Positions 849-24,831 of a stretch of DNA of 41,920 bases are shown piece after piece. Every line of letters starts with the position of its first letter. Position 1 is the stretch's first letter. The stretch comes from Gammaproteobacteria bacterium. GTDB lineage: Bacteria > Pseudomonadota > Gammaproteobacteria > SZUA-152. Position numbers and translations under genes: made by a program. The stretch spans positions 1 through 41,920 of the forward strand of contig JAVVEP010000026.1 of the NCBI GenBank assembly GCA_032250735.1, in the 5' to 3' direction. The notes under the pieces are model-generated. The model searched no databases. It was not told where the DNA came from and saw nothing but the letters and a program-made list of their open reading frames with translations.

Positions 849-2384
849 CTACCAGTGCATCGTTATGCCGGCACTCAGCTGATTTTCGACGTAATCATTG
901 CCCGCCCCGCTGCCATTACGACGCACGTTGCGCATTTCAAATGTGGAGTTGACGCTCTTTCCCAATTGTTTCTCGTAACTGACTCCGGCGATGGTATAAC
1001 GGTCATCGCCTATCTCTCGCTCGGTGTTCTGGCGGCCTAGATTGGCGCTAAATTCTTCGCTGCGGGATATTTGCAAATTCCAGCCAAGGTCAACGCCGGA
1101 TGTAATCTCGGTAACACTGGTCTCCTGAAACTCTCTGCGTGAGCGATTAACCTGAAAGGTGCTTGTGGATTTTCGGTGACGCATCGTCCAGTGAAAGCTG
1201 GCGCGCCGCTCAATGAATACCTCGTCGGTTGCCACGAGTATATCTCGCTGAGATATGACCGGACTCAATGTAATGGGATCAGTGTAAATCGTGCCATCTG
1301 GATTAACCCGTATAAAAGTGAATTGCTCCAGCTGCAGTTCGCGACGTGATGACAGGTCTTCATTGTAGGCCAGTTGCCAGCCATGCCGACGAGCCTGGTG
1401 TGACCAGTCCAGCGCCCAGGTGCGGCCAAAGAAGCGACGTCCGCCGGAGGCGGTGATCGACGTCTGCGAGCTGGGCGTCCAGACCGTGCCCAGGCTCCAG
1501 TACTCCCCTTCGGGTGTCTCAGCGTCAGCACTTAACTGGTATTCATTGTCCTCATAGCCCGTCTGTCCGGTGAGTCGAATCCTGGGGCTTAGTTGATAGC
1601 CCAGATCCAGCACGGTATCGCGGCGTTTTACATCCTCACGATTCTGTGTGACCGACAGCTCGGAATAATCGATAGTCTGTTCCGTGTAACGCACGCCCCA
1701 GGTCCATGAGCCGAAGGACTTGGCGGACTGGAGACTGGCGCTGACCTGTTCAGACGTGCTGTCTTCCGCCATCTCGCCGCTATAGCTCACGCTGTCCTGT
1801 GAATAGCGTAGATCGGCGACCGTCCACTGGGTCACTCGGGTCTGGATGTAGGGTGAAACCCTGGTGGTCAACACATCCTCGCGGCCACTGACCACGCCAA
1901 TGTTGCCGAGGCTCACATTGTCATCCGGGCTCAACACCTGTTGACTCAGAGTGCTCGATGCATCCAGAAACAACCAGTCCGGCGCCAGCGTTGCCTTGAG
2001 GCCCGCATTTAGTTGGTGGTTGGTGTTGTTACGGTCGCTGTCGCCCAGGTAAAAAAGATTTTGCATACGATAGTCAAATGCCAGTTCCAGCTCTCTTCCC
2101 TTGCCGGTTAATGAAAGCGCCGGATTGATCTGTGAAATCAAGTCGGACTCCGAGTTGGCATCGCTACTGAGGGTGACGTTATCGGTATAGGTTTCAACCA
2201 ATTCGATGGATGGCGTCAGGCGCCATTGCGCGGCGAACCCCAGGCTGGGCATGAGCATGATGGCAAGCCCAAGGCTGCCTATTTTTGTATTTAACCTGAA
2301 TCCACGGCTAAGCCACGGATTCAGATTGAACTCTCCCACCACTAACATTTTCTGGTTTGACCTGGTAAGCAAGCCAGGGCTCAC
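849..2384 (-). CDS. Outer-membrane beta-barrel protein, PEP-CTERM system associated (TIGR03016-like)
   Basis: A 511-residue protein with a signal-peptide-like segment (about residues 33-52, ending GFAA), then alternating polar/hydrophobic strands rich in Tyr, Thr and Arg, ending in a C-terminal Trp as outer-membrane barrels often do. It resembles the uncharacterised barrel family found in exosortase/EPS operons, probably an outer-membrane part of polysaccharide export. It is last in the operon with the export, Wzz and kinase genes. A GTG start overlaps the kinase stop codon (GTGA); an ATG at 2348 is an alternative. Residues about 19-31 are encoded by a dispersed palindrome, so the N-terminus may have been remodelled by a repeat. 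Family call is good; exact role unknown. Confidence 0.82.
   Translation of the reverse strand: MSPGLLTRSNQKMLVVGEFNLNPWLSRGFRLNTKIGSLGLAIMLMPSLGFAAQWRLTPSIELVETYTDNVTLSSDANSESDLISQINPALSLTGKGRELELAFDYRMQNLFYLGDSDRNNTNHQLNAGLKATLAPDWLFLDASSTLSQQVLSPDDNVSLGNIGVVSGREDVLTTRVSPYIQTRVTQWTVADLRYSQDSVSYSGEMAEDSTSEQVSASLQSAKSFGSWTWGVRYTEQTIDYSELSVTQNREDVKRRDTVLDLGYQLSPRIRLTGQTGYEDNEYQLSADAETPEGEYWSLGTVWTPSSQTSITASGGRRFFGRTWALDWSHQARRHGWQLAYNEDLSSRRELQLEQFTFIRVNPDGTIYTDPITLSPVISQRDILVATDEVFIERRASFHWTMRHRKSTSTFQVNRSRREFQETSVTEITSGVDLGWNLQISRSEEFSANLGRQNTEREIGDDRYTIAGVSYEKQLGKSVNSTFEMRNVRRNGSGAGNDYVENQLSAGITMHW
2295..2323. repeat. Dispersed palindrome, CTGAATCC type, copy A
   Basis: CTGAATCC/GGATTCAG arms (with GGC/GCC and G-T pairs inside) around a 3-nt loop. 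Related to copies at 5645-5679, 11034-11064 and 23356-23386. This copy lies inside the 5' end of the barrel-protein reading frame. Confidence 0.85.
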
Positions 2385-3280
2385 ACACCACCACCATAAC
2401 CACCATACGCACCATACCCATACAGCCCGTAACCGGTGCCAATGCCTCGCTCGCTCTTGTTGAGCAATACACCGACGATTTGATTGGGCGCCAACAGGGC
2501 AACCGCGTCTTTCACCACCGGTTGCGGTGTCTTCCCCGCCTCCACCACCAGGACAACCTGCCCCATCAGCCCGGCCAGCACCGCGGCCTCGCTGGTCAAC
2601 AACAGCGGTGGCGTGTCAAAAATAACCACCCGATCCGGATAGCGTTGTGACAACTCATCCATGAGATTGCGCATGTTGGTGCTGGCCAGCAGCTCGGTAG
2701 AATGGGTGTGGCGTCGACCGGCGGGCAAGATGCTCAGCTTCGGCACGTTGGTTTTTAACATCAGATCCGAGATATCCAGATTGGGCTCGGCCAGATAATC
2801 CACCAGACCCTTTTCCGGCTCCGGCACACCCAGGTACTGGCAGACGGCGGGCTTGGCCACATCCGCTTCCACCAATAAAACCGTTCGATCCATCTCGGTG
2901 GCCATGCTGATCGCCAGGTTGATTGCGGAAAAGGATTTACCCTCGCCCGGCAATGCACTCGTCACCATAATCAGATTCGCGTGGGGAATATTCGCCGCCG
3001 TTTTGCCAAAGGCATTATTCAGCAGCGGGCGCTTGATGGCGCGATACTCTTCCGCTAATTGATTCTTGCTCTGGTCCAGGGTCAGCATGCCCAGTGCGGC
3101 AATGCGTTCAAAATCTATTATCACCTCACGCGAAGCGCTGCGACTCGGTCGACCGGGGGTCTGGGCAGCAGTGGTTTGCATATCCTGCTCGGAGACGGGA
3201 AATGACGGCTCCTGTTTGCCGGCATCGCCACTCGTCGCTTTCTTGCCGAGTTTGTCTACAAATTTTTCAATGGAACTCAT
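2381..3280 (-). CDS. Exopolysaccharide tyrosine autokinase, PEP-CTERM locus type (TIGR03018-like)
   Basis: A 299-residue cytoplasmic BY-kinase-like ATPase that is expected to work with the separate Wzz-like protein encoded just upstream to control polysaccharide assembly. Visible motifs: Walker A SALPGEGKS (108-116, Lys115), Walker A' VEADVAKP (137-144, with Glu138 where many have Asp) and Walker B VVIFDTPP (218-225, Asp222). The last 17 residues are almost only Gly and Tyr, with five Tyr (284, 287, 289, 292, 295): the autophosphorylation cluster. No membrane segment, so the kinase and chain-length domains are split, as in other exosortase-linked EPS operons. It starts 15 nt after the Wzz stop, and its own stop overlaps the start of the barrel gene, so the three are probably co-translated. 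Confidence 0.93.
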   Translation of the reverse strand: MSSIEKFVDKLGKKATSGDAGKQEPSFPVSEQDMQTTAAQTPGRPSRSASREVIIDFERIAALGMLTLDQSKNQLAEEYRAIKRPLLNNAFGKTAANIPHANLIMVTSALPGEGKSFSAINLAISMATEMDRTVLLVEADVAKPAVCQYLGVPEPEKGLVDYLAEPNLDISDLMLKTNVPKLSILPAGRRHTHSTELLASTNMRNLMDELSQRYPDRVVIFDTPPLLLTSEAAVLAGLMGQVVLVVEAGKTPQPVVKDAVALLAPNQIVGVLLNKSERGIGTGYGLYGYGAYGGYGGGV

Positions 3281-3295
3281 GTCATTAACAGCCGA

Positions 3296-4846
3296 TCAGG
3301 CTGCACCTCCCGATAACAACTGGTAGGCCATATACGCGCCATAGACGGACATCAACATAAGCCCTCCCACGCCAAAGGCGAGCACCTCCATGCGTCGCTT
3401 GAGCCGCTCTTTGCCGCTCCAGACACGCGACACGCTACCCAGTACCGGCAGACCCAATTCATGGCGTACCGTACGCGCACTGTCATAGGTGGGCCTGACC
3501 TGGGACATGAAGAAGGCGAAGGCGATCCCCGCCAACCAGCCGGCGGCCAGGACCACGCTGGTCAACAGCGGTCGGTTCGGAGAAACCGGCTCCGAGGGAA
3601 CAAACGGGGGATCGACCACACGAAACTTGACGTTGTCTCCCGCCTTGCCGGCGTCTTCTGACATCTTCGCCGTTTCACGCCGCTCCAGCAGGGTGTCGTA
3701 ATTCTTTTTGTTGACGTCGTAATCGCGGTTCAGGCGCTTGAAGTCCGCCTCGACTTTCGGAATCGTATCGACGGCCTGCTTGAGCTCCTCCACCTCGGAC
3801 TGAAACTGTTTCACGCGCACCTCCAGCCCGGCCACTGTCGCCTCGGACTCGCCCAGTGAGATTCTCAACTGCTGATAGACGGGATTGGTATCGAGATTAT
3901 TCGAGGCCTGGGGAGCGCTCTCCTGAATCAGCGCCATCTCCGCGGCCTTCTGTTCTTCCAGGTCATTGATGGTGCGTTGCAGCGCCGCGACGTCGGGATG
4001 CTTATCGGTAAATTGCAGCAACAGATCGTCAAGCCGGATTCGCAGGCCCTGAATCCGTGAATCCAGGGCGCTATCCATAGTCTGCGCCTTTGGTGGCGCC
4101 ACCATGCCGAATGTCGGCTCCTCACCACGCAGCTGCCGGCGTAATTCATCGCGCCGATTAACGGCCTCGCTCAATTCGAGCTGAGCGCCGGACAGGCGGG
4201 TCATCGCGGTCTGAAGGCGTGAGAAATACTCGCCGCCGTCGGTCGGCATCATGCCGATATTTTTACGTTTGAATTCCTTCAGTTTTTCCTCGGCGGCAAA
4301 CAGGCGGGCCTCGTATTCCTTTATCTGCTCGTCCAGGAAACCCTGCGCCGAGCGCGAATCTTTCCGGCTGTCACCCAGGCTGGTCTCCACAAAAAGCGTC
4401 AGCAGCGATTGCACAACCTGCTTGGCCTGGGCGGGATCTTTATCGACATAGGCAAGAGAGTAGAGATTTTCCCGGCCATGGCCGGCCAACACAATCTTGT
4501 GTTTGAGTCGGTCCAGCAGCTCTTCCATCTGTTCCGGCGTGGTGGCCGTCAGATCCATGTCGGTCATCCGCGCTATCTTTTCCAGGTTAGGTCGGCTCAC
4601 CAGGGTCCGGGTCATCAGCTCCACCTCCTGTCCCACGTTGCCCTCAACTGCCAAACCTCTCAACAAGGGACGGAGTACCGACTGTGTATCCACATACACC
4701 CGCGCTGAGGCCTGGTATTCATCCGGCAACTGATGCACCACAATCCAGCCGGCAATACACAGCGGCCAGGCGACGAAATGCATATACCAGCGGAATCGCC
4801 ACGCACCACGCAGATAACCCAATGATTGTTCAATCAGCTCTTGCAT
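3296..4846 (-). CDS. Wzz-like polysaccharide chain-length determinant, PEP-CTERM locus type (TIGR03007-like)
   Basis: A 516-residue inner-membrane co-polymerase. An N-terminal Wzz domain has a first membrane helix at about residues 19-38 (FRWYMHFVAWPLCIAGWIVV), followed by the conserved stretch that runs from the periplasmic face (YQASARVYVDTQSVLRPLL). A long periplasmic coiled-coil region occupies about residues 160-400. A second helix (about 431-450, LTSVVLAAGWLAGIAFAFF) is preceded by a Pro-rich motif (PPFVPSEPVSPNRP), and a further hydrophobic segment lies near the C-terminus. Its role is to set polymer length and to activate the partner kinase encoded next. Second gene of the operon, 89 bp after the export-protein gene. 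The start is the first ATG; its ribosome site is weak. Confidence 0.93.
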   Translation of the reverse strand: MQELIEQSLGYLRGAWRFRWYMHFVAWPLCIAGWIVVHQLPDEYQASARVYVDTQSVLRPLLRGLAVEGNVGQEVELMTRTLVSRPNLEKIARMTDMDLTATTPEQMEELLDRLKHKIVLAGHGRENLYSLAYVDKDPAQAKQVVQSLLTLFVETSLGDSRKDSRSAQGFLDEQIKEYEARLFAAEEKLKEFKRKNIGMMPTDGGEYFSRLQTAMTRLSGAQLELSEAVNRRDELRRQLRGEEPTFGMVAPPKAQTMDSALDSRIQGLRIRLDDLLLQFTDKHPDVAALQRTINDLEEQKAAEMALIQESAPQASNNLDTNPVYQQLRISLGESEATVAGLEVRVKQFQSEVEELKQAVDTIPKVEADFKRLNRDYDVNKKNYDTLLERRETAKMSEDAGKAGDNVKFRVVDPPFVPSEPVSPNRPLLTSVVLAAGWLAGIAFAFFMSQVRPTYDSARTVRHELGLPVLGSVSRVWSGKERLKRRMEVLAFGVGGLMLMSVYGAYMAYQLLSGGAA

Positions 4847-4935
4847 TAATTATTACTTCTTAATCGCTATGGGATGGATCATGGATAGAGGAGCCAGACA
4901 TGAAAAGGAAGCAACCGACACCTGGCGCGCAGGGC

Positions 4936-5616
4936 CTAAAACCAGGATTCAGGAATAATCAGGATATCGCCTGGCAATATGGGCACGTTGGCACTGATAT
5001 CCCCCTCGCGAATGAGATCATCCAGGCGCACGCCAAACTGTTTCTGCTGGCCCTCAACATTCCTGACGATGGAGGCCTTATTGCCGGCGGCAAATTCGGT
5101 GAGGCCACCGACCGCAATCATCACATCCAGCACCGACATATGCTCACGATACGCCAGCGCCTGCGGCCTGCCAGCCTCTCCCACGACCCGGACCTGCTGG
5201 CTATAGGGGCCCACAAAACCGCTGACCATAATCGTCACCAGCGGCTCCTTGAGATAATTCGCCAGTTCACGCTCCACATCACGCGCCAGCTGCGTGGGCG
5301 TCTTGCCCGCCGCGACCAGGTCTTCTACTAAAGGGGTAGAAAGCTTCCCATCGGGCCTGACGATCACCGAGGTCGACACCTCGGGATTACGCCACACAAA
5401 CACCTGTAAGGAATCCCCGGGGCCGATGAGATAATCGGTGCTGATTGCACCCGATGTCGCCGCCGGCAAGGTGGGTTGCTGGGAACAACCGGCGGTAAAC
5501 ACTAGTGAGATGAGTAACATTGCAGTGAGCAATAATGGGCCGGATTTTAAACCGGATAGTAAGCCGGATGACGGCATCGAAAGCGAGGCAATACGTCGTT
5601 TATCACAAAAGGCCAT
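4936..5616 (-). CDS. Polysaccharide export lipoprotein, Wza-like (TIGR03027-like)
   Basis: A 226-residue outer-membrane export protein. The signal sequence ends in a lipobox FTAGC with Cys44 as the lipidated residue. The Poly_export domain (about 58-135) opens with TDYLIGPGDSLQVFVWRNPE, and an SLBB-like domain follows (about 138-215, VRVVGEAGRPQALAYREHMS). It forms or caps the channel that carries the polymer across the outer membrane. The start at 5616 is favoured over Met14 because AGGGA sits about 8 nt upstream. First gene of the minus-strand operon that continues with the Wzz, kinase and barrel genes. A perfect 15-bp-arm palindrome lies 29 nt upstream of the start and would be in the leader if transcription begins beyond it. 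Confidence 0.92.
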   Translation of the reverse strand: MAFCDKRRIASLSMPSSGLLSGLKSGPLLLTAMLLISLVFTAGCSQQPTLPAATSGAISTDYLIGPGDSLQVFVWRNPEVSTSVIVRPDGKLSTPLVEDLVAAGKTPTQLARDVERELANYLKEPLVTIMVSGFVGPYSQQVRVVGEAGRPQALAYREHMSVLDVMIAVGGLTEFAAGNKASIVRNVEGQQKQFGVRLDDLIREGDISANVPILPGDILIIPESWF

Positions 5617-5644
5617 AAATCAATCCCTAATTTAATCTGACTCA

Positions 5645-5679
5645 GACCTGGATCCGTGGTTAAACCACGGATCCAGGTC
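5645..5679. repeat. Dispersed palindrome, perfect 15-bp arms, copy B
   Basis: Arms GACCTGGATCCGTGG (5645-5659) and CCACGGATCCAGGTC (5665-5679) around the loop TTAAA. It is the best-preserved member of the CTGAATCCGTGG-type family and sits just upstream of the export-lipoprotein gene. Confidence 0.95.
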
Positions 5680-6328
5680 AGAAAAATACCATGAAAAACA
5701 ATCTACAGGACGAATATTCAATACCCAGCCCAACAATGTTAGTACACAAAATCCGCTACATTGTACATCGGCGCAGGAGGGTAAGTCTTTACGTTGAAAA
5801 TATCAGTAAATTATTACCCAATTATTAACCGGGCAGAACCGCCGGCACTGACACAGACCCACAATCAGTGTCATTCCGACCAAAACCCAGAAGCTTTGTG
5901 ATCCCGGCGAATACCCTCGGGGATTAAGGCCGGCGTCCAGAATAAACAATCGTGTCAGTTTCTCTGGGTTCCGGCCCCGGCGGACAGCGTATCGGGTCAG
6001 GTTTGGCCGGGAGGAAACAGCGTTTTTAAAAAAACTACCCCTCTATATCTATATCCCCGGTGTGAGCCCTGGAACTGGCGGATATGTCGGGTTTCCTTAC
6101 GGCCACAACCCACGAATTACCATATAATCCCCTAATCACACCGGCAATCCCCACCATAAAGCCCGGATAACAACGTAACATATTGTTAATATTTGATTTT
6201 ATCTCACCTTGCTCATGCAGGCATGCCAGAAGTCAAGGCCAGATGGGATTGTCGAAATTTCTTACAATGCGTGCCCTCCTCGCACCAAAATATATTTATT
6301 ATTATTTAATATCAATCAGTTACAAAAC
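5680..6328. other. Intergenic region between the EPS export operon and the PEP-CTERM gene
   Basis: About 650 bp with no convincing gene. It must hold the promoter of the minus-strand export operon and any upstream activator sites for the sigma-54 promoter at 6329. A spaced inverted repeat TGACAC (5849-5854)/GTGTCA (5868-5873) and degraded repeat-like sequence rich in CCGG (about 5876-5995) are visible. I cannot assign a promoter on the minus strand with confidence. Confidence 0.6.
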
Positions 6329-6344
6329 TGGCACGCCTGTTGCT
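6329..6344 (+). promoter_or_regulatory. Sigma-54 (-24/-12) promoter of the PEP-CTERM-like gene
   Basis: The sequence TGGCACGCCTGTTGCT matches the RpoN consensus TGGCACR-N4-TTGCW at every defined base, with GG at 6330-6331 and GC at 6342-6343 in the required 10-bp spacing. Transcription should begin near 6355, leaving a leader of about 58 nt. A sigma-54 activator with an intact GAFTGA loop (PrsR) is encoded at 13991-15346, making it the natural candidate activator. Confidence 0.9.
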
Positions 6345-6412
6345 ACATATCCACCGAGAGACATTTAATTAATGGAATGGCTTCACAATCAAGCAACATA
6401 GAGGATAGGACA

Positions 6413-7153
6413 ATGGGCAAAATGAACAAAAAACTGATGGGAATCGCAGCAGCAGCAATGCTGGCCAGCGGTTCATCATGGGCTGTAAGCTTTGGTGATG
6501 TAGCAACTGATGGTGTGGCGATACAGTCTGTTCTTGATAGCATCGCTACTGATGGCGTCAACAACGTCAATGCGACAACCGATTATTTGAGTGATGGAAA
6601 TGACTCGTACTGGAGCGTTGGCGGTTCCGGTGGCAGCATTTCAACCATCGTGGTTGAGCTGGCTGGTTTTGCCAATACCAATACCTTTGGTATCTATGAC
6701 AAGGTCACCGCTCAGCACATTCAGCTCTTCGCGGGCGCCAATGATGCTGGCGATCAGGCACTGGTTTCAATTCTGGCCGACGGTTCAGTATATGTGAACT
6801 TTGCTGATACCGGCATCGATTTCGCCGGCAACAAGTTTGCCTACTATCTGAATGCCAATGGGCAGAACCTGTTCTACAGTGATACCGATCTTAACGCCGA
6901 TGGCGTCGATCACATGGCCGCTTATCAGGGTGTTGGTGAAGAAATTGAAATTGCACCATTTGCCGCCGGTCCTTGGGGCGCGAATGAGTATATCCTGGCC
7001 TGGGAAGACCTGTATGGCGGTGGTGACAGGGATTTCGTCGATTTCGTAGTCCTGGTTGAGTCAGTAACGCCGGTGCCTGCTCCTGCTACCCTGGCCCTGA
7101 TCGGCCTTGGTCTAATCGGTATGGGCTTTCGCGCACGTCGTAAAGCAGCGTAA
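6413..7153 (+). CDS. Secreted protein with C-terminal PEP-CTERM-like sorting signal (DUF4114-like)
   Basis: A 246-residue exported protein. Signal peptide at residues 1-24 (MGKMNKK, Ala-rich core, cleavage after SSWA). The mature part is rich in Asp, Asn and Gly with few charged basics, and residues near 205-215 (YGGGDRDFVDFVVLVE) resemble the end of DUF4114-type domains. The last 26 residues are tripartite: VPAPA, a hydrophobic helix (TLALIGLGLIGMGF) and a basic RARRK end, as in exosortase substrates, but with VPAP in place of VPEP. Start chosen at 6413 because GAGG lies 8 nt upstream; an ATG at 6422 is possible. Sigma-54 promoter upstream, terminator downstream, so a single-gene unit, probably controlled by PrsK/PrsR. 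Function likely in the extracellular matrix; substrate unknown. Confidence 0.88.
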   Translation: MGKMNKKLMGIAAAAMLASGSSWAVSFGDVATDGVAIQSVLDSIATDGVNNVNATTDYLSDGNDSYWSVGGSGGSISTIVVELAGFANTNTFGIYDKVTAQHIQLFAGANDAGDQALVSILADGSVYVNFADTGIDFAGNKFAYYLNANGQNLFYSDTDLNADGVDHMAAYQGVGEEIEIAPFAAGPWGANEYILAWEDLYGGGDRDFVDFVVLVESVTPVPAPATLALIGLGLIGMGFRARRKAA

Positions 7154-7172: not shown

Positions 7173-7203
7173 AAAAACGCCACCCTCGGGTGGCGTTTTT
7201 TTT
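7173..7203 (+). terminator. Rho-independent terminator of the PEP-CTERM-like gene
   Basis: Stem ACGCCACC (7177-7184) with GGTGGCGT (7189-7196), a short loop and a run of eight T. It lies 24 nt after the stop codon. Confidence 0.95.
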
Positions 7204-7248
7204 GCGCCGAATTTTATAGTGCTGGGTGCTGACTAAAATCTACAACCC

Positions 7249-7283: not shown

Positions 7284-7590
7284 TGTCAGTCAGGTAGGGG
7301 GCACGTTTGTTGTGCCCACCCTGCATCGGTGAGCCGATGGCTGAAAATGATAACAACATATGGCGTAGGGAATTCGGGTGATACTGTATGTGAACACGAG
7401 AAATGATTGTGGATGTAGCCGCATGGGCACAAAAAACGTGCCTACCTTACCTGGCTATTACCATTGTAGCGTCTGGACCCCGGCATTCCCCGGGATGACG
7501 AGGATTCGGGCCTTAAGTAAGTGCCACTCCCCTATGGCCCACAATCCCGGTATCGGGGATCAGCAACTCCTCGGGTGGGTATCGTTCATG

Positions 7591-7671
7591 CGGCGCAATG
7601 CCCTTCGGTTATTGGCGCCCTACGCACCATCCCACCCCGTAGGGCGCCAATAACCGAAGGGCATTGCGCCG
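7591..7671. repeat. Perfect 34-bp inverted repeat, 13-nt loop (copy 1)
   Basis: Arms 7591-7624 and 7638-7671 are exact reverse complements; each arm is one dispersed GGCGCAAT-type element in opposite orientation. A second copy lies 486 bp further on because of the tandem duplication. Confidence 0.92.
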
Positions 7672-7721
7672 TATATCAGTAGCCGCGTGGGTACAAAACG
7701 TGCCCACCCTACAGGGTGGGA

Positions 7722-7778
7722 TCAGAGCTGCTCCAGCAATTGCTGTGCCTCTTGTCGTGTCTGAAATGTATCACCAGC
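7722..7778 (-). pseudogene. Detached 3' fragment of the TPR gene (duplicated tail)
   Basis: This stretch encodes GDTFQTRQEAQQLLEQL and a stop, the same 17 C-terminal residues as the TPR gene ending at 8208. It has no gene body upstream: it is a remnant copied by the 486-bp tandem duplication. Open frames that run into it are not genes. Confidence 0.85.
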
Positions 7779-7943: not shown

Positions 7944-8076
7944 GCTTAGTTTGTAGGGCGCAATAACCATCGGGCATTGCGCCGTATGTTCGGCGTAACG
8001 ATAATTCGAATATAACCTTATGGTCCACAATCCCGGCATCGGGAATCAGCAACTCCTCGGGTGGGTATCGTTCATG

Positions 8077-8157
8077 CGGCGCAATGCCCTTCGGTTATTG
8101 GCGCCCTACGCACCATCCCACCCCGTAGGGCGCCAATAACCGAAGGGCATTGCGCCG
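8077..8157. repeat. Perfect 34-bp inverted repeat, 13-nt loop (copy 2)
   Basis: Arms 8077-8110 and 8124-8157. It duplicates 7591-7671 exactly as far as I can read. It lies about 50 bp beyond the stop codon of the second TPR gene and would form a long transcript hairpin. Confidence 0.92.
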
Positions 8158-8207
8158 TATATCAGTAGCCGCGTGGGTACAAAACGTGCCCACCCTACAG
8201 GGTGGGA

Positions 8208-11006
8208 TCAGAGCTGCTCCAGCAATTGCTGTGCCTCTTGTCGTGTCTGAAATGTATCACCAGTTTTGAGAATCTGTTCGAGGATGCGGCGTGACTCTGG
8301 TTTTTTGCCGGACTGGGCGAGGGCTGCGGCGAGATGGTATTGCACATCGCCGGACTCCGGCATTTTTTCAGCGGCCTGGCGCAATAATTCCAGCGCGGGC
8401 TTTATCTCACCCTGCTGAAATCTGATCCATCCCAGCGTGTCCAGCACAGGCCCGCTATCCGGGCGTTGTTCGTAGGCCTTATTCGCCAATAGTAAAGCCT
8501 CATCGAGCTGCTTATTCTGATATAGCAGCCAGGCGAGATCATTGAGTGCGGGGACGAATTTCGGCGCACCCTGCAACAAGCGTCGATATTCATTCATCGC
8601 CTCAACCCTTTTACCATCGGTGGAATAGGCGGCTGCCAGGGCGTAGTGCGCGGTTACGTCGTCCTTATGCGACGCGACCCAGTCTGACAGCAGCTTTATG
8701 CTGGCAGCACTGCCTTGACTACTCTGCAGGGCGGCAGCCTCTTTCAACAACACCGGTGTACCCGCACCCAGCTCTCGGGCCCGGGCATAGGCACCCGCTG
8801 CCCGTGCGCTCTGCTTCTGCTGGGCGCGTATATCACCTTCCAGCACAAAACCGGCGGGCGATTGGGGATGCTGCTTTTTGATCACCGCGACACTGCGCAG
8901 CGCCGCGGTCATATCGTCCGTCTTTACATCCAGCAGCGCCAGCAGGGATAACGCCTGAAGATCACCCGGGCGCTGCTCCAGGCTTTGCCGGAGCGAGGTC
9001 TTTGCGGCGACAAGATTGTTGGCGCGGAACTGGGCCACGCCCAGTGAATAATAGGCCTGGGCGGTCGGTTGCTGCTTTACGACCGTTTTAAAACTGTTCA
9101 CTGCGGCGCTGTAATTCTGCGCGGCCAGCTCAACACTGCCCATCAGCTCAAGCGCCTGTGGGTTGTTGATGTCGATAGTAACGGCCTCGCGCGCAATTTC
9201 ACCGGCCCGAGCGAGATTTCCGGTGCGCGAATAATAGCGTGCGAGCAACAGCCGTGGCGACAACGCCCTGGCATCCGCAGCTCGGGACCTTTCCAGCCAC
9301 TCCAGGGCCTGCTTGCGATCATTCCCGGCATCCGCCAGCTGGGCGAGGGCCATCATGGCCGAGGTATTGTCTGCATCCTTTGCCAGAATCCCGTCGAGTC
9401 GCGCACGCGCCTCATCGGAGCGGCCCGCCAACACGTCAAGGCGTGCAAGATTGAGTGTCGCTGGGGTGAAATCCGGCTCACGTTTCAAGGCGGCGGCAAA
9501 GGCGGTGCGCGCCTGCGCAACCTCACCCCTGGCGCTGAGAATGACACCCAACAGGTTTTGCGCATAGGCGCTTTTCGGTTGCTGGGCGGCCAGCTCTTCG
9601 GCGGCCGCAATGGCCTTATCGAAATCATTATTCTTCAGGTAGGCCAATGCCAGCAGGGATTGCTCACGCGCCGGAGCATTCCCCAGTTTAACCGCCTGCT
9701 CCAGCTCATCAATGGCCAGCGCATCATTACCCTCGGCCAGATGCAACACGGCGAGCTGGGCACGCAACGCCCCTGCCTCGGGCTGACTGGCGATGGCCTT
9801 TTGCAGATATGCCCGGCCCTTTTCGAACTCACCGCTTTGTAAGGCTGCCTGCCCCGCCATCGCCAACAGCCGCAGATCATTCGGCCGCTGTGCCAGTGCA
9901 GGCTCCAGCACATCCAGAGCCAGATCGGTCTGCGAGCGCTGCAATTGCAGATTAGCCAACAGCATTCGTGCCGCCAACAGGGAGGGATTTGCGCCCACTA
10001 CCCGCGTTAACTGCTGTTCTGCCTGTTCCATATTGCCCAATGCGTAATTGGCGCTGCCCAACAGAAACACACTGGGAATATGGTCGGGCGAGAATTTCAA
10101 CACCGTCTGAAAATAATCGCGGGCCCTGGTGTAGTCCTTTTTTTCATAGGCCAGCAATCCCGCCATGTAATTCGGCATCGGATTGTTGGGCGAAGCCTTC
10201 AGCAAATACTCCACATGGCTTGCCGCGTCATCAAATTTTTGCTGCGTGATCAACAATTTTGTGAGGCCGGTGTGCGCCGCCATTCCCGCACGGGTGACGA
10301 TATTGGCCGCCGCCAGGTCGATTGCACGCTGATAGGCCGCCTGCGCCTCATCCTGTCGTTGCGCCCGATTCGCAATATCACCTCGCAACACCCATGCCTC
10401 GACGTTTTTGGGATCTATCGCCAGCAGCTTTTCAAGCTTTTGATCGGCCTTTTCCTGTTCACCCGCCGCAATATACATTCTGGCCTGGCCGAGTAAGGCA
10501 GCCGGATCATCCGCCTTGCTGACCAATGCCTCGCTAAAATCCGCCGCTGCCAGATCATTCTGGCCCAGGCCAAGCTGGGCCTCGCCTCGCAACACAAGAA
10601 GATCCGGCTGCGAACTGACATCCATTTCCGATAGCATTGCCAGCACTTCCGCATGGCGACCTTGAAGCAACAGGGATTTTCCGCGCAGTTGTTGCACATA
10701 GCTGCTGGACACGCCGAGTTGCAGGGCCTTGTTCAATTCCTTTTCTGCGGCCGCACCGTTACCGATCAACACATATAATTCACCGAGCATGAGTCGCGCT
10801 TCAGAGTTATTCGCATTTTTCTGCAGGGCATTTTTCAATTCTATAAGCGTCGCCTTAAGATCACCCTTCGACTGATATTGTTTCGCCTGAATGACATGTT
10901 GCGCATCACTGATCTCTGCCTTTCCGCAGGCCACCAACGCCAGACTCACCATCAGTAACAAAATCACCCGTCCACGCATCATGGGATTTACTAAACGACA
11001 AATCAT
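8208..11006 (-). CDS. prsT: PEP-CTERM system TPR-repeat lipoprotein, PrsT type (paralog 2)
   Basis: A 932-residue protein made of about 20 or more TPR-like helix pairs (family TIGR02917). The N-terminus is a lipoprotein signal with lipobox LVAC (Cys27, Gly at +2), so it is probably lipid-anchored, likely in the outer membrane. The start at 11006 has GAGGGAG directly upstream. TPR scaffolds of this family sit in exosortase/EPS loci beside prsK and prsR and are thought to act in polysaccharide or protein assembly; the mechanism is not established. It lies 97 bp after a related gene at 11104-13914, and its last codons are duplicated at 7722-7778. The two are clear paralogs: both begin the mature part with a KGDxxAxxIxLKNALQK repeat. 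Confidence 0.9.
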   Translation of the reverse strand: MICRLVNPMMRGRVILLLMVSLALVACGKAEISDAQHVIQAKQYQSKGDLKATLIELKNALQKNANNSEARLMLGELYVLIGNGAAAEKELNKALQLGVSSSYVQQLRGKSLLLQGRHAEVLAMLSEMDVSSQPDLLVLRGEAQLGLGQNDLAAADFSEALVSKADDPAALLGQARMYIAAGEQEKADQKLEKLLAIDPKNVEAWVLRGDIANRAQRQDEAQAAYQRAIDLAAANIVTRAGMAAHTGLTKLLITQQKFDDAASHVEYLLKASPNNPMPNYMAGLLAYEKKDYTRARDYFQTVLKFSPDHIPSVFLLGSANYALGNMEQAEQQLTRVVGANPSLLAARMLLANLQLQRSQTDLALDVLEPALAQRPNDLRLLAMAGQAALQSGEFEKGRAYLQKAIASQPEAGALRAQLAVLHLAEGNDALAIDELEQAVKLGNAPAREQSLLALAYLKNNDFDKAIAAAEELAAQQPKSAYAQNLLGVILSARGEVAQARTAFAAALKREPDFTPATLNLARLDVLAGRSDEARARLDGILAKDADNTSAMMALAQLADAGNDRKQALEWLERSRAADARALSPRLLLARYYSRTGNLARAGEIAREAVTIDINNPQALELMGSVELAAQNYSAAVNSFKTVVKQQPTAQAYYSLGVAQFRANNLVAAKTSLRQSLEQRPGDLQALSLLALLDVKTDDMTAALRSVAVIKKQHPQSPAGFVLEGDIRAQQKQSARAAGAYARARELGAGTPVLLKEAAALQSSQGSAASIKLLSDWVASHKDDVTAHYALAAAYSTDGKRVEAMNEYRRLLQGAPKFVPALNDLAWLLYQNKQLDEALLLANKAYEQRPDSGPVLDTLGWIRFQQGEIKPALELLRQAAEKMPESGDVQYHLAAALAQSGKKPESRRILEQILKTGDTFQTRQEAQQLLEQL

Positions 11007-11103: not shown

Positions 11104-13914
11104 TTATTTTTCCAGCTCTGCCAACAAGGCTCTCGCCGCTTTTGCCTCTGAAAAATCGGGCGCCATATCCAGCGTTCGCTTCAACTCTGACTTCGCCTCC
11201 GCTTTACGGCCGGCCTTATGCAGCCCGACGCCGAGGTGATAGCGTATCTCCGCGATTTGTGGCGCCTTGACCACGGCCTGCTGCAACAAGGCCAGACCAC
11301 GATCGGTGTTACCGGTCTCCACCAGCAGCCAGCCAAAGGTATCGGCTACGGCGGGGTTATCCCCTGCCAGGTCGTAGGCCCGTTTTGCGTAATCGAGTGC
11401 GTCGGCCTTACCCAGCATATGCGACGACCAGGCCAGGTTATTGAGCGCGGCCACATCATTGGGGTGATTTTTGATGACCTGCCGATATTGCTCAATCGCC
11501 TTATCCAGCAGGCCATGTTCCTGATAGGCACCCGCCAATAGGGAACGCACCAGCTGATCCTGCGGATTTTTCGCCAGCCAGGTTTCCAGCGAGGCATAGG
11601 GTGCCTTCACCTTTGCCATCTTCCGCGCCTGAAAGATAAGCACTGCCAGGGCTGAGGCCGGCGATTTATCGTAGGCCTGCTGATAGAGTTTTACCGCCGA
11701 AGTGTAGTCACCCTCGGCCATCAACACATCACCCTGCAGACGAAAGCCGTCGACTTCTGTCGGCCGCTGCTGCTGGATCTTTTTCGCAATCGCCAGTGCG
11801 GCCTTTGGTCGTTTCTGCTGCAATTCCATTTGTGCCAGCGATATCTGCGCGGGTAAAAAGTCTGCCTGCAGTGCCAGCGATTGATTGAGATGTTTTATGG
11901 CGGTATCCCTGTCATCCATCTGCCGATTGATCTGCGCCAATAGTAGATGGGCCTGCGGGGATTCCGGCAACAACTTTACCAGCGATTCGAAGGTCGCCTG
12001 TGCATTGTGATAGTCCTTCGCGGCCATCTGCGACATGCCCAGCGCATTGATGACTACCGGATTATTGGGGTGTTTCAGCAGTAAATCCCGGGCAATGCTG
12101 ACAGCGCGTAGTGGCTGTTGTTTTTTGTTGTAATAATCGATCAAGATCATGCCGGGTTGAATGGCGTCCTCGTTGGATTCCCAGGCCTTTTCCAGCAGGC
12201 GAACCGCCTCTTCGCCTTTACCCTCGGCATCGGCCAGCTGCGCCAGAGACAACAGGGCCCCCAGATGATTGTCCCGTTGTTTCAGAATGGATTCATAGCG
12301 GCTGCGCGCGGCTGCAGGGTTGTTTTCACGCTCGTCGAGTCGCGCGAGGTTGATGATGGCGGGAATAAAGTTCGCTTCCATATCGATGGCCTGTTGAAAC
12401 TGTTGACGGGCCTGAGGTAACTGTTCCAGCCCCACATAGGCCGCGCCCATCAGATTAAAGGGCAAGGGACTGGTGGGCGCCTTTTTCGCAAACGCCTGGG
12501 CCTGGGTTAACGCCTTGTCATATTGCTTTTCCTGTAGGTGCAGCATGATCAGCATCACATCCGCCTGAAAAACGTTCTGTCCCAGATCGATGGCGGCCTC
12601 CAGATCCTCGACCGCCTGCGCGGTATTGCCGCTCGCCAGACGACCTAACGCCAATTGTGTACGAATACCGGCGGTCTCGGGTGCTGCGGCCACGGCCTTT
12701 TCCAGATACTCGGTGCCCTTCGCCGTCTGCTTGTTCTGCATGTAGGCGGTGCCGGCCAGTGCCAGCAGCTGGGCGTCATCCTGGGTCGCCGACAGTACCG
12801 GCTCAAGCACCTTAATCGCCTCAGCGGGCTGATTGAGCTTCAGACGGGTGGCGGCCAATAATTTCACCGCCGCGATATTACCTGGGTAGGCCTGCACCAC
12901 GCGCGAGAGGGCCTGATCGGCCTGTTCAAAACGCCCCTTGCTAAAATCGATCGCGCCCAACAACTGCTGGCTGGGAAGGTGATTCGGGGCAATCCTCAGA
13001 ACATTCTGTAGAGATGTCACCGCCCCCGCGATATCCTTCTTACTATAAAGCAGGGTCGCCTTTAGATAATTGCCCATGGGATGATTCGGACTGAGGCGCT
13101 GCACAACCTCGATGCGCTTTGCAGCACCCTCTGTGTCGCCCAGTGCCAACTTGACACTGGCGCTGCCTAATAATGCCGACACGTTGTAGGCCTGCAGGGA
13201 AAGCGCCCGGTCAAAGCTCTTTTCCGCGGACGGCATGTCGCCGCTCATGCGCTTCACCTCACCGTCCAGGAGCCAGGCGGCATCACTTTCGGGGTGCATG
13301 CTGGTGAGCCTGTCCGCCAACGCCTTCGCTTCCCTGGTGTCACCCTTGATCATCGCCAGCCGCGTTTGCCCGGCAAGGGCGTTGAGCGATTTGGGTTCGA
13401 GCTCGAGCGCCTTTAGAAACGCCGCCTCGGCTTCCTTATTCTGCTTCAGCAAAATGTGCGCATTGGCCTGCAACACGTAGACCTCGGCCTGTACATCGAC
13501 GGGGAAATCCTTTTCAACGGTGATCTCTTTTAAAACATCATCTGCGCGCCCCTGAATCAACAGCGCGCGCCCCAGTGACACGACCATTTGCTGGCGGGCC
13601 ATGCCCAGACTCTGTGCCCGGGACAGTTCCTTTTCTGCACTGGCACCATCGCCCAGGGTCAGGTACTGCTCACCCAGGAAAAACCGCGCCTTGATATTCT
13701 TGGGGTCTTTCTGCAGGGCATTCTTCAGCTGAATAACGGCGGCGTTAATGTCGCCTTTTTTGACGTAGTCCTGCGCCTCTTTAAGATAGTCTTCACTGGA
13801 GGCGGCGTGCACCGTTGAAACATACACCACTGGAAGTAGACACATAAGTAACGATAGTAAAAAAGCTCTCAGTCCGCTTCCATGCTTAGATGAGAAAATT
13901 CCTGTTGTTGACAT
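11104..13914 (-). CDS. prsT: PEP-CTERM system TPR-repeat protein, PrsT type (paralog 1, not lipidated)
   Basis: A 936-residue protein (947 if begun at the earlier ATG 13947) built from about 20 TPR-like repeats, TIGR02917 family. The start at 13914 (MSTTGIF) is preferred because AAGGA lies 8 nt upstream. It has a long signal peptide (about 37 residues, ending STVHA before ASSED) but no lipobox Cys, so the mature protein should be soluble in the periplasm, unlike its lipoprotein neighbour. It directly follows prsR (76-bp gap), the usual prsK-prsR-prsT order. Role: probable scaffold for exosortase-linked EPS assembly. Confidence 0.9.
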   Translation of the reverse strand: MSTTGIFSSKHGSGLRAFLLSLLMCLLPVVYVSTVHAASSEDYLKEAQDYVKKGDINAAVIQLKNALQKDPKNIKARFFLGEQYLTLGDGASAEKELSRAQSLGMARQQMVVSLGRALLIQGRADDVLKEITVEKDFPVDVQAEVYVLQANAHILLKQNKEAEAAFLKALELEPKSLNALAGQTRLAMIKGDTREAKALADRLTSMHPESDAAWLLDGEVKRMSGDMPSAEKSFDRALSLQAYNVSALLGSASVKLALGDTEGAAKRIEVVQRLSPNHPMGNYLKATLLYSKKDIAGAVTSLQNVLRIAPNHLPSQQLLGAIDFSKGRFEQADQALSRVVQAYPGNIAAVKLLAATRLKLNQPAEAIKVLEPVLSATQDDAQLLALAGTAYMQNKQTAKGTEYLEKAVAAAPETAGIRTQLALGRLASGNTAQAVEDLEAAIDLGQNVFQADVMLIMLHLQEKQYDKALTQAQAFAKKAPTSPLPFNLMGAAYVGLEQLPQARQQFQQAIDMEANFIPAIINLARLDERENNPAAARSRYESILKQRDNHLGALLSLAQLADAEGKGEEAVRLLEKAWESNEDAIQPGMILIDYYNKKQQPLRAVSIARDLLLKHPNNPVVINALGMSQMAAKDYHNAQATFESLVKLLPESPQAHLLLAQINRQMDDRDTAIKHLNQSLALQADFLPAQISLAQMELQQKRPKAALAIAKKIQQQRPTEVDGFRLQGDVLMAEGDYTSAVKLYQQAYDKSPASALAVLIFQARKMAKVKAPYASLETWLAKNPQDQLVRSLLAGAYQEHGLLDKAIEQYRQVIKNHPNDVAALNNLAWSSHMLGKADALDYAKRAYDLAGDNPAVADTFGWLLVETGNTDRGLALLQQAVVKAPQIAEIRYHLGVGLHKAGRKAEAKSELKRTLDMAPDFSEAKAARALLAELEK

Positions 13915-13990
13915 AGCCTGATTCCTTTTTTTAATCATCGGTTTCAATTATTAATACGGACGTCTTTTCGTATGCCTGTGTTGCGTAGTG

Positions 13991-15346
13991 CTATTTCATT
14001 CCATACTTTTTCATCAAATCATAAAATGTCGGGCGACTCACATTCAGCAGGTCGGCGGCCTGGGTCACATTATCATTGGCGATGGCCAGGGCACGTTGCA
14101 TGGCCTGACGCTCCGCCTGCTCTCTTACCTGTCGCAGGTCGGTGAGAAAAGACAGATCAAGCTCGCCTTCAAGTTCCAGATCGCCCGGCTCGATGAGATC
14201 GCCATCGGCCAGGATCACCGCGCGTTTGATCTTGTTTTCCAACTCACGCACATTGCCGGTCCAGACGTGTTTTTCCATCGCCGCCAGCGCCGCCGTGGAA
14301 AAACCCTTGAGGGCGCGACCGTTTTCGCGCGAAAAACGATACAGAAAGGCGCGCGCCAGCAACAGTACATCACCCTCACGCTCACGCAGCGGCGGGATCT
14401 CCAGCGATATCTCGTTAATACGATAGTATAGATCCTCGCGGAATTTCCCCGCCTCGATCAGGGCGGGCAGGTTCTGGTGCGTGGCGCAAATCACGCGGAC
14501 ATCGACGGGAATCTCCTTGCGTCCACCCACCCGCTCCACCACGCGCTCCTGCAGAAAACGCAGCATCTTGGCCTGTAGCGACTGCGGCAGATCACCGATT
14601 TCATCGATAAAGAACGTGCCGCCTTCGGCCAGTTCGATTTTTCCGGGAGTGGTCTTGTTGGCGCCGGTAAAGGCGCCTTTTTCATAGCCGAAGAGTTCAC
14701 TCTCCAGCAGGGTCTCAGGGATGGCGGCACTGTTGATGGCGATGAATTTTTCATGGCTGCGGGCACTGAGCTGATGCAGGGCCTTGGCCATCACCTCCTT
14801 ACCGGTTCCGCTTTCACCCAGTATCAAGGTGGTGGCATTGGTGGGCGCCACCTTCTCTATCATGCGGCAGAGCTTGTGCATCTGCGGGCTGGCGGCGATC
14901 ACCCCATCCAGCGGAGACGATGTCTGTTGCAGCAGCTCGCGATTTTCGGCCTCGAGATCGTACAGCGCATAGGCGCGTTCAATAATCAGCGAAAGAATCT
15001 CGGGCTCGATGGGCTTCTGATAAAAGTCGTACGCTCCCATGGCGATGGAACGTACGGCATTTGCCCGATCGTCATTGCCCGTCACCACGATCACCTTGGT
15101 GTGCGGCGCCTTGCTCAGGATGGCCTCCAGCGTCGCCAGGCCTTCGGAGGCATTGGCGGGGTCGGGCGGCAGGCCAAGGTCCAGGGTCACCACGGCCGGC
15201 CTCAGCGACTCCACGGCCTCTAGGGCAGACGCCCTGTCGCCCGCGATGGTGACCTCAAAATCCTCAAAGCACCAACGCAGCTGACTTTGCAGGCCAGGAT
15301 CATCCTCGACCACCAGCAATGCGCGTAATTTGTTCTTCTTTGCCAT
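13991..15346 (-). CDS. prsR: Sigma-54-dependent response regulator PrsR (TIGR02915 family)
   Basis: A 451-residue NtrC-type activator. The receiver domain (about 8-125) has an acidic pocket EDD (14-16), phosphoacceptor Asp56 (VVTLDLGLP) and Lys111. The AAA+ domain has Walker A GESGTGKE (177-184), the sigma-54 contact loop GAFTGA (224-229) and Walker B GGTFFIDEIGDL. A Fis-type helix-turn-helix closes the protein (NVTQAADLLNVSRPTFYDLM). All parts needed to activate RpoN promoters are present; the perfect -24/-12 promoter at 6329 is the obvious in-window target. ATG at 15346 is preferred; a TTG at 15352 is in frame. It follows prsK, separated by a 17-bp duplicated stretch. Confidence 0.95.
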   Translation of the reverse strand: MAKKNKLRALLVVEDDPGLQSQLRWCFEDFEVTIAGDRASALEAVESLRPAVVTLDLGLPPDPANASEGLATLEAILSKAPHTKVIVVTGNDDRANAVRSIAMGAYDFYQKPIEPEILSLIIERAYALYDLEAENRELLQQTSSPLDGVIAASPQMHKLCRMIEKVAPTNATTLILGESGTGKEVMAKALHQLSARSHEKFIAINSAAIPETLLESELFGYEKGAFTGANKTTPGKIELAEGGTFFIDEIGDLPQSLQAKMLRFLQERVVERVGGRKEIPVDVRVICATHQNLPALIEAGKFREDLYYRINEISLEIPPLREREGDVLLLARAFLYRFSRENGRALKGFSTAALAAMEKHVWTGNVRELENKIKRAVILADGDLIEPGDLELEGELDLSFLTDLRQVREQAERQAMQRALAIANDNVTQAADLLNVSRPTFYDLMKKYGMK

Positions 15347-15375
15347 ATTCAATTCATCGCCATATTCAATTCATC
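15342..15375. repeat. 17-bp tandem duplication at the prsK/prsR junction
   Basis: GCCATATTCAATTCATC occurs twice in a row (15342-15358, 15359-15375). On the coding strand it repeats the GATGAATTGAATATGGC segment, which contains the prsK stop and the ATG used to start prsR. The duplication lengthens the gap from about 2 to 19 nt. Confidence 0.95.
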
Positions 15376-18985: not shown

Positions 18986-19471
18986 GGGTGAACGATATCC
19001 TTATTGTACAATCTCGCTACAATGCGGGAGCACGGCGGGACCGTGCTGTTAAACTAAACGATCAAGCGAACTTTGCAAACATTTAATTCTTCTGACAAAT
19101 AAGCAGCGAATTCGCCGGACATTCTAGTGACTTTTCTTAGCCTGAACCAGTAGAATAACGCCCGCAAATGGCCAAAATTGTGGCATCTGGCAACATCGAT
19201 AGGTCCTTGTAGGACGCGCCCTACAAAGGCATGACAGGCCGCTTACGCCGGGCCGCTTCAAAAAATCACGCTAACGGATGCCTCGCGCGAAGAATACACG
19301 AAGAATACACATAGAAAGCTGGTAGCATCTTGCACACCCGAAAATTAGCTCGCCCCTCTCCTCCGAATAGGAAGGCCCGTTCCATAGGGAGGCTCATCCC
19401 ATCAGGTAGGACCGCTGGCTTGTTTATTTCTGGTCAACGCACATCACAAAAAATATGAAAGGTCATCAACA
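18986..19471. other. Divergent intergenic region between the two EPS transcription units
   Basis: It holds no gene. Visible structures: the palindrome ATTGTACAAT (19002-19011); a hairpin AGCACGG-cggga-CCGTGCT (19029-19047) in the leader of the minus-strand operon; a near-perfect inverted repeat CCTTGTAGG/CCTACAAAGG (19205-19229) that resembles a fragment of the dispersed repeats; and an 11-bp direct repeat CGAAGAATACA (19289-19310). Promoters for both directions must lie here, but I find no consensus strong enough to assign, and no -24/-12 site. Confidence 0.6.
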
Positions 19472-24111: not shown

Positions 24112-24831
24112 CTACTGCGGCTCTTCAACCTGCTGCCACAGGCAGGGTTTGCCACTGGCCTCACTGATCGCTCGCAGGCGGGCCTCGTGCGCCAGCAGGT
24201 CTTCACTGGTCGCGCGTATCACGCGCAGGCGGGGTCGATCGGCGGGCAGGCGGCGAATATCCCCCACCGCCGATTGCGACTCATCGTTTTTGCCGGCCAG
24301 TAACAGATCCGTCTGGCCGCCGGTCATCAGCAGATAGACGTCCGCGAGGATCTCCGCATCCAGCAAGGCGCCATGCAGTTCGCGATGGGCGTTATTGACC
24401 TCGTAGCGCTTGCACAGGGCATCCAGGTTATTTTTCTGCCCGGGGTGCATCTTGCGCGCCAGTTGCAGCGTGTCCAGTACCGTGCAATGCGCCTCCAGCG
24501 GCGCATCACGGCCACCGAGCAGCTTCAGCTCGTTATTCAGGAAACCCATGTCGAAGGGGGCGTTGTGGATCACCAGCTCTGCGCCGCGCACAAATTCCAT
24601 GAAATCATCCACCACATCGGCGAACCGTGGCTTATCGACGAGGAATTCATTACTGATGCCATGCACCTCGATGGCGCCCTCATCGATCTCACGGTCGGGC
24701 TGCAGGTACTGGTGATAATGTCGGCCGGTCAGCCGACGGTTCACCAGCTCGACACAGCCGATCTCGATGACTCGATGGCCCTGGCTCGGTTCGAGGCCGG
24801 TGGTTTCGGTATCTAATACAATCTGACGCAT
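24112..24831 (-). CDS. dnaQ: DNA polymerase III epsilon subunit (3'-5' proofreading exonuclease)
   Basis: A 239-residue DEDD exonuclease. Exo I LDTETTG with Asp7 and Glu9; Exo II HNAPFDMGFLNNEL; Exo III HRELHGALLDAEILADVY. It binds the alpha subunit in replication and removes mismatched nucleotides. The length is close to the E. coli protein (243). It lies downstream of rnhA on the same strand, as usual in gammaproteobacteria, but with a 274-bp gap. Confidence 0.96.
   Translation of the reverse strand: MRQIVLDTETTGLEPSQGHRVIEIGCVELVNRRLTGRHYHQYLQPDREIDEGAIEVHGISNEFLVDKPRFADVVDDFMEFVRGAELVIHNAPFDMGFLNNELKLLGGRDAPLEAHCTVLDTLQLARKMHPGQKNNLDALCKRYEVNNAHRELHGALLDAEILADVYLLMTGGQTDLLLAGKNDESQSAVGDIRRLPADRPRLRVIRATSEDLLAHEARLRAISEASGKPCLWQQVEEPQ

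Follow-up and report, generated by a model that had tools for sequence, protein, structure and literature searches.

By all sequence tests applied, the region preceding the gene at 6413–7153 of a 41,920-nt stretch of gammaproteobacterial DNA (the whole stretch analysed, hereafter the window) is a promoter used on demand, of a kind described in 2006, and it serves a secreted biofilm-type protein. We consider it very probable that the region controls a PEP-CTERM gene which forms a unit of its own within the PrsK/PrsR/sigma-54 regulon, and that the divergent EPS genes lie outside the switch. Judged from sequence, the tie of the promoter to PrsR is motif 1, which stands at its published spacing and is co-distributed with PrsR. 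The relevant features of the window are as follows:

849–5616, minus strand: XrtA-type EPS genes (export, chain length, tyrosine kinase, outer membrane protein)
6085–6101, plus strand: weaker second motif-1-like copy TGTCGGGTTTCCTTACG with two mismatches, lying 165 nt further upstream than the first
6250–6266, plus strand: motif 1 TGTCGAAATTTCTTACA, predicted to be the PrsR enhancer, separated from the promoter by a 62-nt spacer
6310–6322, plus strand: IHF-like site TATCAATCAGTTA without mismatch to the consensus; its start lies 19 nt before the promoter
6329–6344, plus strand: sigma-54 -24/-12 promoter TGGCACGCCTGTTGCT (GG 6330–6331, GC 6342–6343)
6413–7153, plus strand: DUF4114 protein with PEP-CTERM-type tail, presumed secreted (PF13448 and PF07589 over cut-off)
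7177–7203, plus strand: apparent intrinsic terminator ACGCCACCCTCGGGTGGCGT followed by a T-run, read directly from the sequence
8208–11006 and 11104–13947, minus strand: two PrsT-type TPR proteins (TIGR02917, 722.6 and 824.5 bits; cut-off 312.2)
13991–15352, minus strand: PrsR, sigma-54 response regulator (GAFTGA, receiver Asp, Fis-type HTH)
15366–17543, minus strand: PrsK, histidine kinase (TIGR02916, 815.5 bits; cut-off 300)

The promoter and its predicted enhancer

The string TGGCACGCCTGTTGCT is the sole match without mismatch to TGGCACGNNNNTTGCW in the window, where a first-order Markov model predicts 0.023 such matches, and its 3' end lies 68 nt before the ATG at 6413. An earlier note on this DNA had reported a perfect -24/-12 match about 70 bp before the start codon and had placed the transcription start near 6355. 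The first point was borne out, and the second agrees with the +1 of 6355 predicted by convention with C6343 as -12. When up to two mismatches were allowed, nine matches were observed in the window against 9.66 expected. Over the 3.43-Mb genome there were four perfect sites (none in the reversed control) where 1.8 would be expected, so that perfection alone is weak genome-wide evidence. A -24/-12 site identifies sigma-54, not the activator, and a link to PrsR judged from the perfect site alone was rejected on the strength of these genome-wide counts.

The enhancer sequence at 6250–6266 differs at one position from TGTCG-N6-TTTACA (CTTACA here). The exact pair pattern TGTCGN7TTACA-N(50-80)-TGGCN9GC occurred five times in the genome and not at all in the reversed control. 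A relaxed version of the pattern gave ten matches genome-wide with none in the reversed control, a control which understates the background for this pattern because about three of the ten look like chance. These three are C2:33323 together with C2:109655 and C14:56211, the last two of which look coding by eye. Another motif-1-like string with two mismatches lies at 19005–19021 on the minus strand, without a promoter. The earlier note had connected the promoter to PrsR through the perfect -24/-12 site and a prsR gene 7 kb away; the circuit it proposed stands, but it is motif 1 that provides the tie and not those two features. Motif 1, its second copy and the IHF-like site had all been overlooked in that note.

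The downstream gene and its neighbourhood

The predicted product of 6413–7153 is 246 residues long, with a hydrophobic N-terminal stretch recognized by eye (a putative signal peptide) and a tail that scored 20.5 bits against TIGR02595 (cut-off 16). This tail, VPAPATLALIGLGLIGMGFRARRKAA (window 7073–7144), reads PAP in place of PEP, which by eye makes it unique among the 13 over-cut-off PEP-CTERM hits of the genome; L015, a hit below the cut-off, likewise reads PAP. Among homologues of the DUF4114 protein, the tail reads SAPATLALL in G013 and VPEPATM in two distant Desulfobacterota. The sequence GAGG is found 8 nt upstream of the ATG, and the terminator after the gene fits a unit of one gene. 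In addition, 219 bases are repeated exactly and in direct orientation at 7559–7777 and 8045–8263 (486 nt apart); the second copy runs into the prsT gene whose 3' end is at 8208.

PrsR scored 696.5 bits against TIGR02915 (cut-off 502.6) and was the only hit over cut-off to this model in the genome, in which one RpoN gene was found (499.9 bits; cut-off 277.35). Its description as an intact sigma-54 activator with GAFTGA and a phosphoacceptor Asp56 proved correct; the receiver Asp is residue 58 counted from the TTG and residue 56 from the ATG two codons after it, so that the number 56 holds if the ATG is the start. Genes associated with XrtA are present, and no exosortase was detected among the 20 window frames scanned.

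Occurrence of the element in the genome

Motif 1 with at most one mismatch was found together with a -24/-12 site in at least nine places in the genome:

L001, L003, L004, L006, L009 (window) and L010: PEP-CTERM genes, spacers of 61, 63, 74, 97, 62 and 64 nt, respectively
L024, contig 8: PilZ protein (PF07238, 36.7 bits; cut-off 22.5), spacer of 96 nt
L027: Tat-like protein, spacer of 74 nt
L039: presumed secreted protein near a contig end, spacer of 62 nt

Nine is a lower bound, since 31 of the 75 genome-wide matches to motif 1 at this stringency were looked at (four in the window, five at known loci and 22 in 20 regions). On this reading of the sequence the link between promoter and PrsR is not private to neighbouring genes, PrsR being the sole over-cut-off regulator of its family for all nine elements. 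Of the 13 over-cut-off PEP-CTERM hits, six carry the motif-1 pair and seven lack it, so PrsR would not be a general regulator of PEP-CTERM genes.

The PilZ gene at L024 (and L165) stands in a row with frames that we take by eye to be epmA- and efp-like. A Tat-like protein with a GYWKN motif is encoded behind the element at L027/L127 (C2:40517–43517) and at L146. In its own genome the L027 gene is followed by one for a small PqqD-like protein (by eye), and neither product gave a Pfam or NCBIfam match. At L025 (contig 31) two copies of motif 1, 132 nt apart, precede the gene for a large presumed secreted protein, and no sigma-54 site was found there. Two other matches were set aside: L022 (C2:33322), an exact motif 1 with a weak promoter at 44 nt which is probably due to chance, and L023, which lies inside an open frame.

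Conservation, co-distribution with PrsR and alternative readings

The nearest homologue of the 6413–7153 protein, at 45–50% identity, was found in G013, a genome of the same family. Its promoter TGGCACGCCTCTTGCT differs from that of the window by one base of the inner spacer, motif 1 reads TGTCGAGATACTTTACA with a spacer of 62 nt as in the window, and a second motif 1, here an exact copy, lies 165 nt upstream at the same offset as the window's 6085–6101 copy. By tblastn the gene order was also that of the window, with outer membrane protein, kinase, chain length and export genes running one way and the PEP-CTERM gene the other, followed by PrsT, PrsT, PrsR and the first part of PrsK, where the compared stretch ends. 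At E 1e-8 the protein was detected in two of 96 genomes, its own included, so the evidence for conservation rests on one comparison. In the DNA examined around two more distant homologues, from Desulfobacterota MAGs, motif 1 was absent at up to one mismatch.

Over the 96 genomes, the pair was present in 31 and PrsR in 31, with both in 25 and neither in 59, in a census that scored up to 15 PrsR candidates per genome and included several incomplete genomes as well as related genomes of the window's own family. The pair was seen without an over-threshold PrsR in six of 31 (G002, G005, G012, G021, G023, G074), and PrsR without an exact pair in six of 31 (G033, G037, G040, G078, G080, G093). Among 72 genomes representing one family each of the class, ten had the pair, 15 had PrsR and nine had both. 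This apparent co-distribution agrees with the phylogenetic profile of Haft.

It is unlikely that the -24/-12 site is used by some other sigma-54 activator of the genome. Candidates for such a role do exist, in the form of six further hits to the PrsR model at 244 to 369 bits, all under the cut-off, and none of the genome's three remaining perfect -24/-12 sites belongs to a motif-1 pair; however, motif 1 is found at the published distance, the spacing in G013 is equal and the pair tracks PrsR across genomes.

More doubtful still, and in our view very unlikely, is a role of the element in driving the divergent EPS genes as well, with the enhancer acting both ways. The EPS genes are transcribed away from the promoter, and the export gene, on the opposite strand, begins at a distance of 634 nt from motif 1; sigma-54 enhancers are able to act from afar. 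In a relative, G006, one element (L096) lies 289 nt before an apparent sugar nucleotidyltransferase gene, a possible exception to the rule that no polysaccharide genes are involved. Against this reading, a scan in which GG and GC were fixed and at most one of five further positions could be wrong revealed no minus-strand -24/-12 site before the EPS export gene (5617–6412), and it found none before the EpsB-like gene (18986–19471); the earlier statement that the EPS intergenic regions hold no second site is thus upheld for these two regions at this threshold. Outside the listed genes, strings with none of the five positions wrong occurred at 7191–7206, in the T-run of the PEP-CTERM gene's terminator, and at 24446–24461. 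The EPS genes of Aquincola are also seemingly not RpoN1-dependent (PMC9850573), and prsK and prsR mutants of Zoogloea keep EPS synthesis (Gao 2018, per PMC9012009). Finally, that the site is a product of chance or a relic, with the gene driven by an ordinary sigma-70 promoter, is also very unlikely, for although the upstream DNA is AT-rich and four perfect sites occur genome-wide against 1.8 expected, only 0.023 sites are expected in the window and the site, enhancer and spacing have persisted while the protein diverged to 45–50% identity.

The earlier proposal that a PrsK/PrsR and sigma-54 circuit acts on the secreted protein and not on the polysaccharide genes is therefore supported by motif 1, its spacing and its co-distribution with PrsR.

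Enhancer-promoter spacing

Pair scans over the 96 genomes in three spacer classes (19–49, 50–80 and 81–111 nt) found 7, 87 and 31 pairs, compared with 3, 2 and 1 in the reversed controls. The lengths of the 125 spacers, unfiltered, peaked near 51, 62, 74, 85 and 96 nt and gave R 0.665 for a period of 11.1 bp. Fifteen of the 125 were dropped before the phasing test: seven with spacers below 50 nt (L022, L158–L163), three with a long frame over the element (L047, L143, L157) and five by hand as coding or doubtful (L045, L103, L129, L134, L136). The remaining 110 were combined into 65 groups by protein or spacer similarity, groups defined in this way being distinct from proven orthologues. L139, which has a poor promoter, was in addition left out of the spacer alignment and of the IHF, family-control and target counts, which refer to 109 elements.

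For the 65 groups Rmax was 0.663 at 11.1 bp; the largest value among 5000 null sets, in which the spacers were blurred by half a turn, was 0.428. The 29 groups outside the main peak gave R 0.524, a value reached in 10 of 5000 sets. In families other than that of the window (24 groups) the period was 11.05 (9/2000), with a similar phase (7.6 versus 6.7 of 11.1) that was less sharp. Group medians fell inside the peak windows of 50–52, 60–65, 71–76, 84–87 and 94–97 nt in 59 of 65 cases, these windows having been set post hoc and covering 23 of 48 positions; the six medians outside were 69, 77, 78, 79, 92 and 92. The distance from promoter to start codon had no periodicity (1847/2000).

There were 17 groups with two or more members. 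In six of these, members were about one turn apart (the PilZ group at 85–86 and 95–97 nt, and others at 51/61, 63/73, 72/84, 74/85 and 86/97), and in nine they differed by at most 3 nt. One group pairs 62 with 88, the latter belonging to L139. Near the 110 elements we counted 16 extra copies of motif 1 on the same strand and none on the other, at distances with no clear step by eye. The period of about 11 bp is close to the helical repeats of 11.08 and 11.60 fitted for loops in living E. coli (PMC1762422).

IHF-like sites

The consensus for IHF is WATCAANNNNTTR, and on the plus strand of the window it is matched exactly at 6310–6322 and nowhere else. Exact matches were present in the spacers of seven of the 65 groups (shuffled mean 0.7, maximum 4 in 200 shuffles) and matches within one mismatch in 33 of 65 (shuffled 10.7, maximum 19). 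The shuffle kept dinucleotides by random walk and sometimes fell back to single-base shuffling, and two other controls were added for this reason. None of 300 permuted consensuses reached 7 or 33 (maxima 4 and 29), and upstream flanks of equal length contained three exact matches and ten within one mismatch, at an AT content of 54% versus 64% in the spacers. For motif-1 elements, this enrichment of IHF-like sites is among the new findings. Position was also restricted, as 13 of 27 forward matches begin 19–20 nt and 10 of 21 reverse matches 31–33 nt before the promoter. No match within one mismatch was found in the spacer of the G013 homologue, and the window's site is therefore not conserved there. 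The spacer alignment also showed A/T-rich positions repeated at intervals of roughly one turn, near -31, -20 and -9 relative to the promoter; bending or contacts with polymerase may account for them.

Targets in related genomes

Genes for proteins with a PEP-CTERM-like tail, recognized by a text pattern, follow 58 of the 109 elements (36 of 65 groups). PilZ-type proteins account for 11 of the 109 (12 in the group, one of them Pfam-tested); the PilZ group of L024 includes 11 further loci in relatives, with a PilZ frame identified in ten. Cell-wall hydrolases account for ten, again by text pattern, with one tested against PF07486 (82.4 bits; cut-off 27):

L106 and nine loci like it in related genomes: motif-1 element followed by a gene for a SleB-like cell-wall hydrolase, spacers spread over 71–76 nt

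The remaining elements stand before further putatively secreted proteins or a small number of different genes, or are followed by an unclear frame or a contig end. No description of PilZ or cell-wall hydrolase genes as PrsR targets was found in the open-licence papers searched, and the element before these genes, as identified from the sequence, is new here.

Proposed mechanism and significance

In the mechanism that we propose, sigma-54 RNA polymerase would wait at 6329–6344 until PrsK, in the membrane, phosphorylates PrsR. Phosphorylated PrsR would then bind motif 1 at 6250–6266 and perhaps also the weaker copy at 6085–6101. The 62-nt spacer would bend, probably with IHF bound at 6310–6322, allowing the ATPase domain of PrsR to open the promoter for transcription.

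The PEP-CTERM gene is thereby assigned to a regulon that is already known and backed by experiment, with motif 1 as the corrected linking site. Stepped spacing would offer a simple test of the contact between PrsR and sigma-54, as well as a quick filter for true PrsR targets. We lean slightly towards a broader proposition, that the PrsR regulon is phase-locked, accepting only whole supercoiled turns of about 11 bp, in many cases with IHF at a set position, and that it also drives PilZ, SleB-like hydrolase and Tat-like proteins. If so, PrsK/PrsR would be a general switch for matrix and envelope remodelling tied to c-di-GMP signalling, and the twist of DNA in cells could be read from natural insertions and deletions.

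Comparison with known systems

Haft 2006 described a 17-nt motif 1 ending in TTTACA, a spacer with a mean of 62.8 nt (SD 10.6) and then a sigma-54 site located on average 71 nt before the start; the element matched PrsR, PrsK and PrsT in phylogenetic profile, and the circuit was predicted there (PMC1569441). The window resembles that element in being an apparent single-gene PEP-CTERM unit with a long upstream region and a motif 1 ending in TTACA. Its 62-nt spacer compares with the mean of 62.8 (the motif borders differing slightly) and lies within the 32–92 nt range, and its -24/-12 site, 68 nt from the start, compares with the mean of 71. PrsR, PrsK and PrsT are all encoded here, and the tail is of the PEP-CTERM type (PAP, with a putative signal peptide recognized by eye). 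From what is reported in that paper we see no essential difference. A term search of its main text gave no occurrence of 'phas', 'IHF' or 'face', and stepped spacing and IHF seem to be undiscussed there.

The circuit is thus already known in kind and is not new, having been predicted by Haft and tested in Zoogloea and Aquincola. In Aquincola tertiaricarbonis the start of pepA was mapped and is RpoN1-dependent (PMC9850573). Like the gene in the window, pepA is a PEP-CTERM gene with a -24/-12 site (TGGCAC / CTGCTT) and an enhancer upstream; RpoN dependence was demonstrated there; the window gene encodes a DUF4114 protein which matches the PepA model over the tail only. A PEP-CTERM gene of Zoogloea resiniphila needs RpoN and PrsK/PrsR, with EPS synthesis unaffected (Gao 2018, per PMC9012009), and control in that case was tested by mutants, whereas the evidence for the circuit in the window comes from sequence. 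In Desulfovibrio, DVUA0057, a PEP-CTERM regulator predicted after Haft, bound its five predicted targets in DAP-chip (PMC3333781). On account of the work in these three organisms, the idea of the earlier note was right in kind and established elsewhere. In a 2025 paper on a sigma-54 regulon, a term search turned up neither PEP-CTERM nor PrsR (PMC12316311).

No report of stepped spacing for PrsR was found in the open-licence literature. The principle is already known, since an NtrC-type promoter depends on the face of the helix (PMC7408454) and 61 sigma-54 enhancer loops of Vibrio qrr genes, acted on by LuxO and about 80–120 bp in length, cluster about 11 bp apart (PMC4740811). In both the qrr genes and the motif-1 elements, the natural distances between enhancer and promoter go up by about 11 bp at a time. 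They differ in that the qrr loops concern LuxO in one genus, whereas the elements described here involve motif 1 (PrsR), distances of about 50–97 bp, several families and many target genes, and it is this PrsR spacing comb over several families that is new here.
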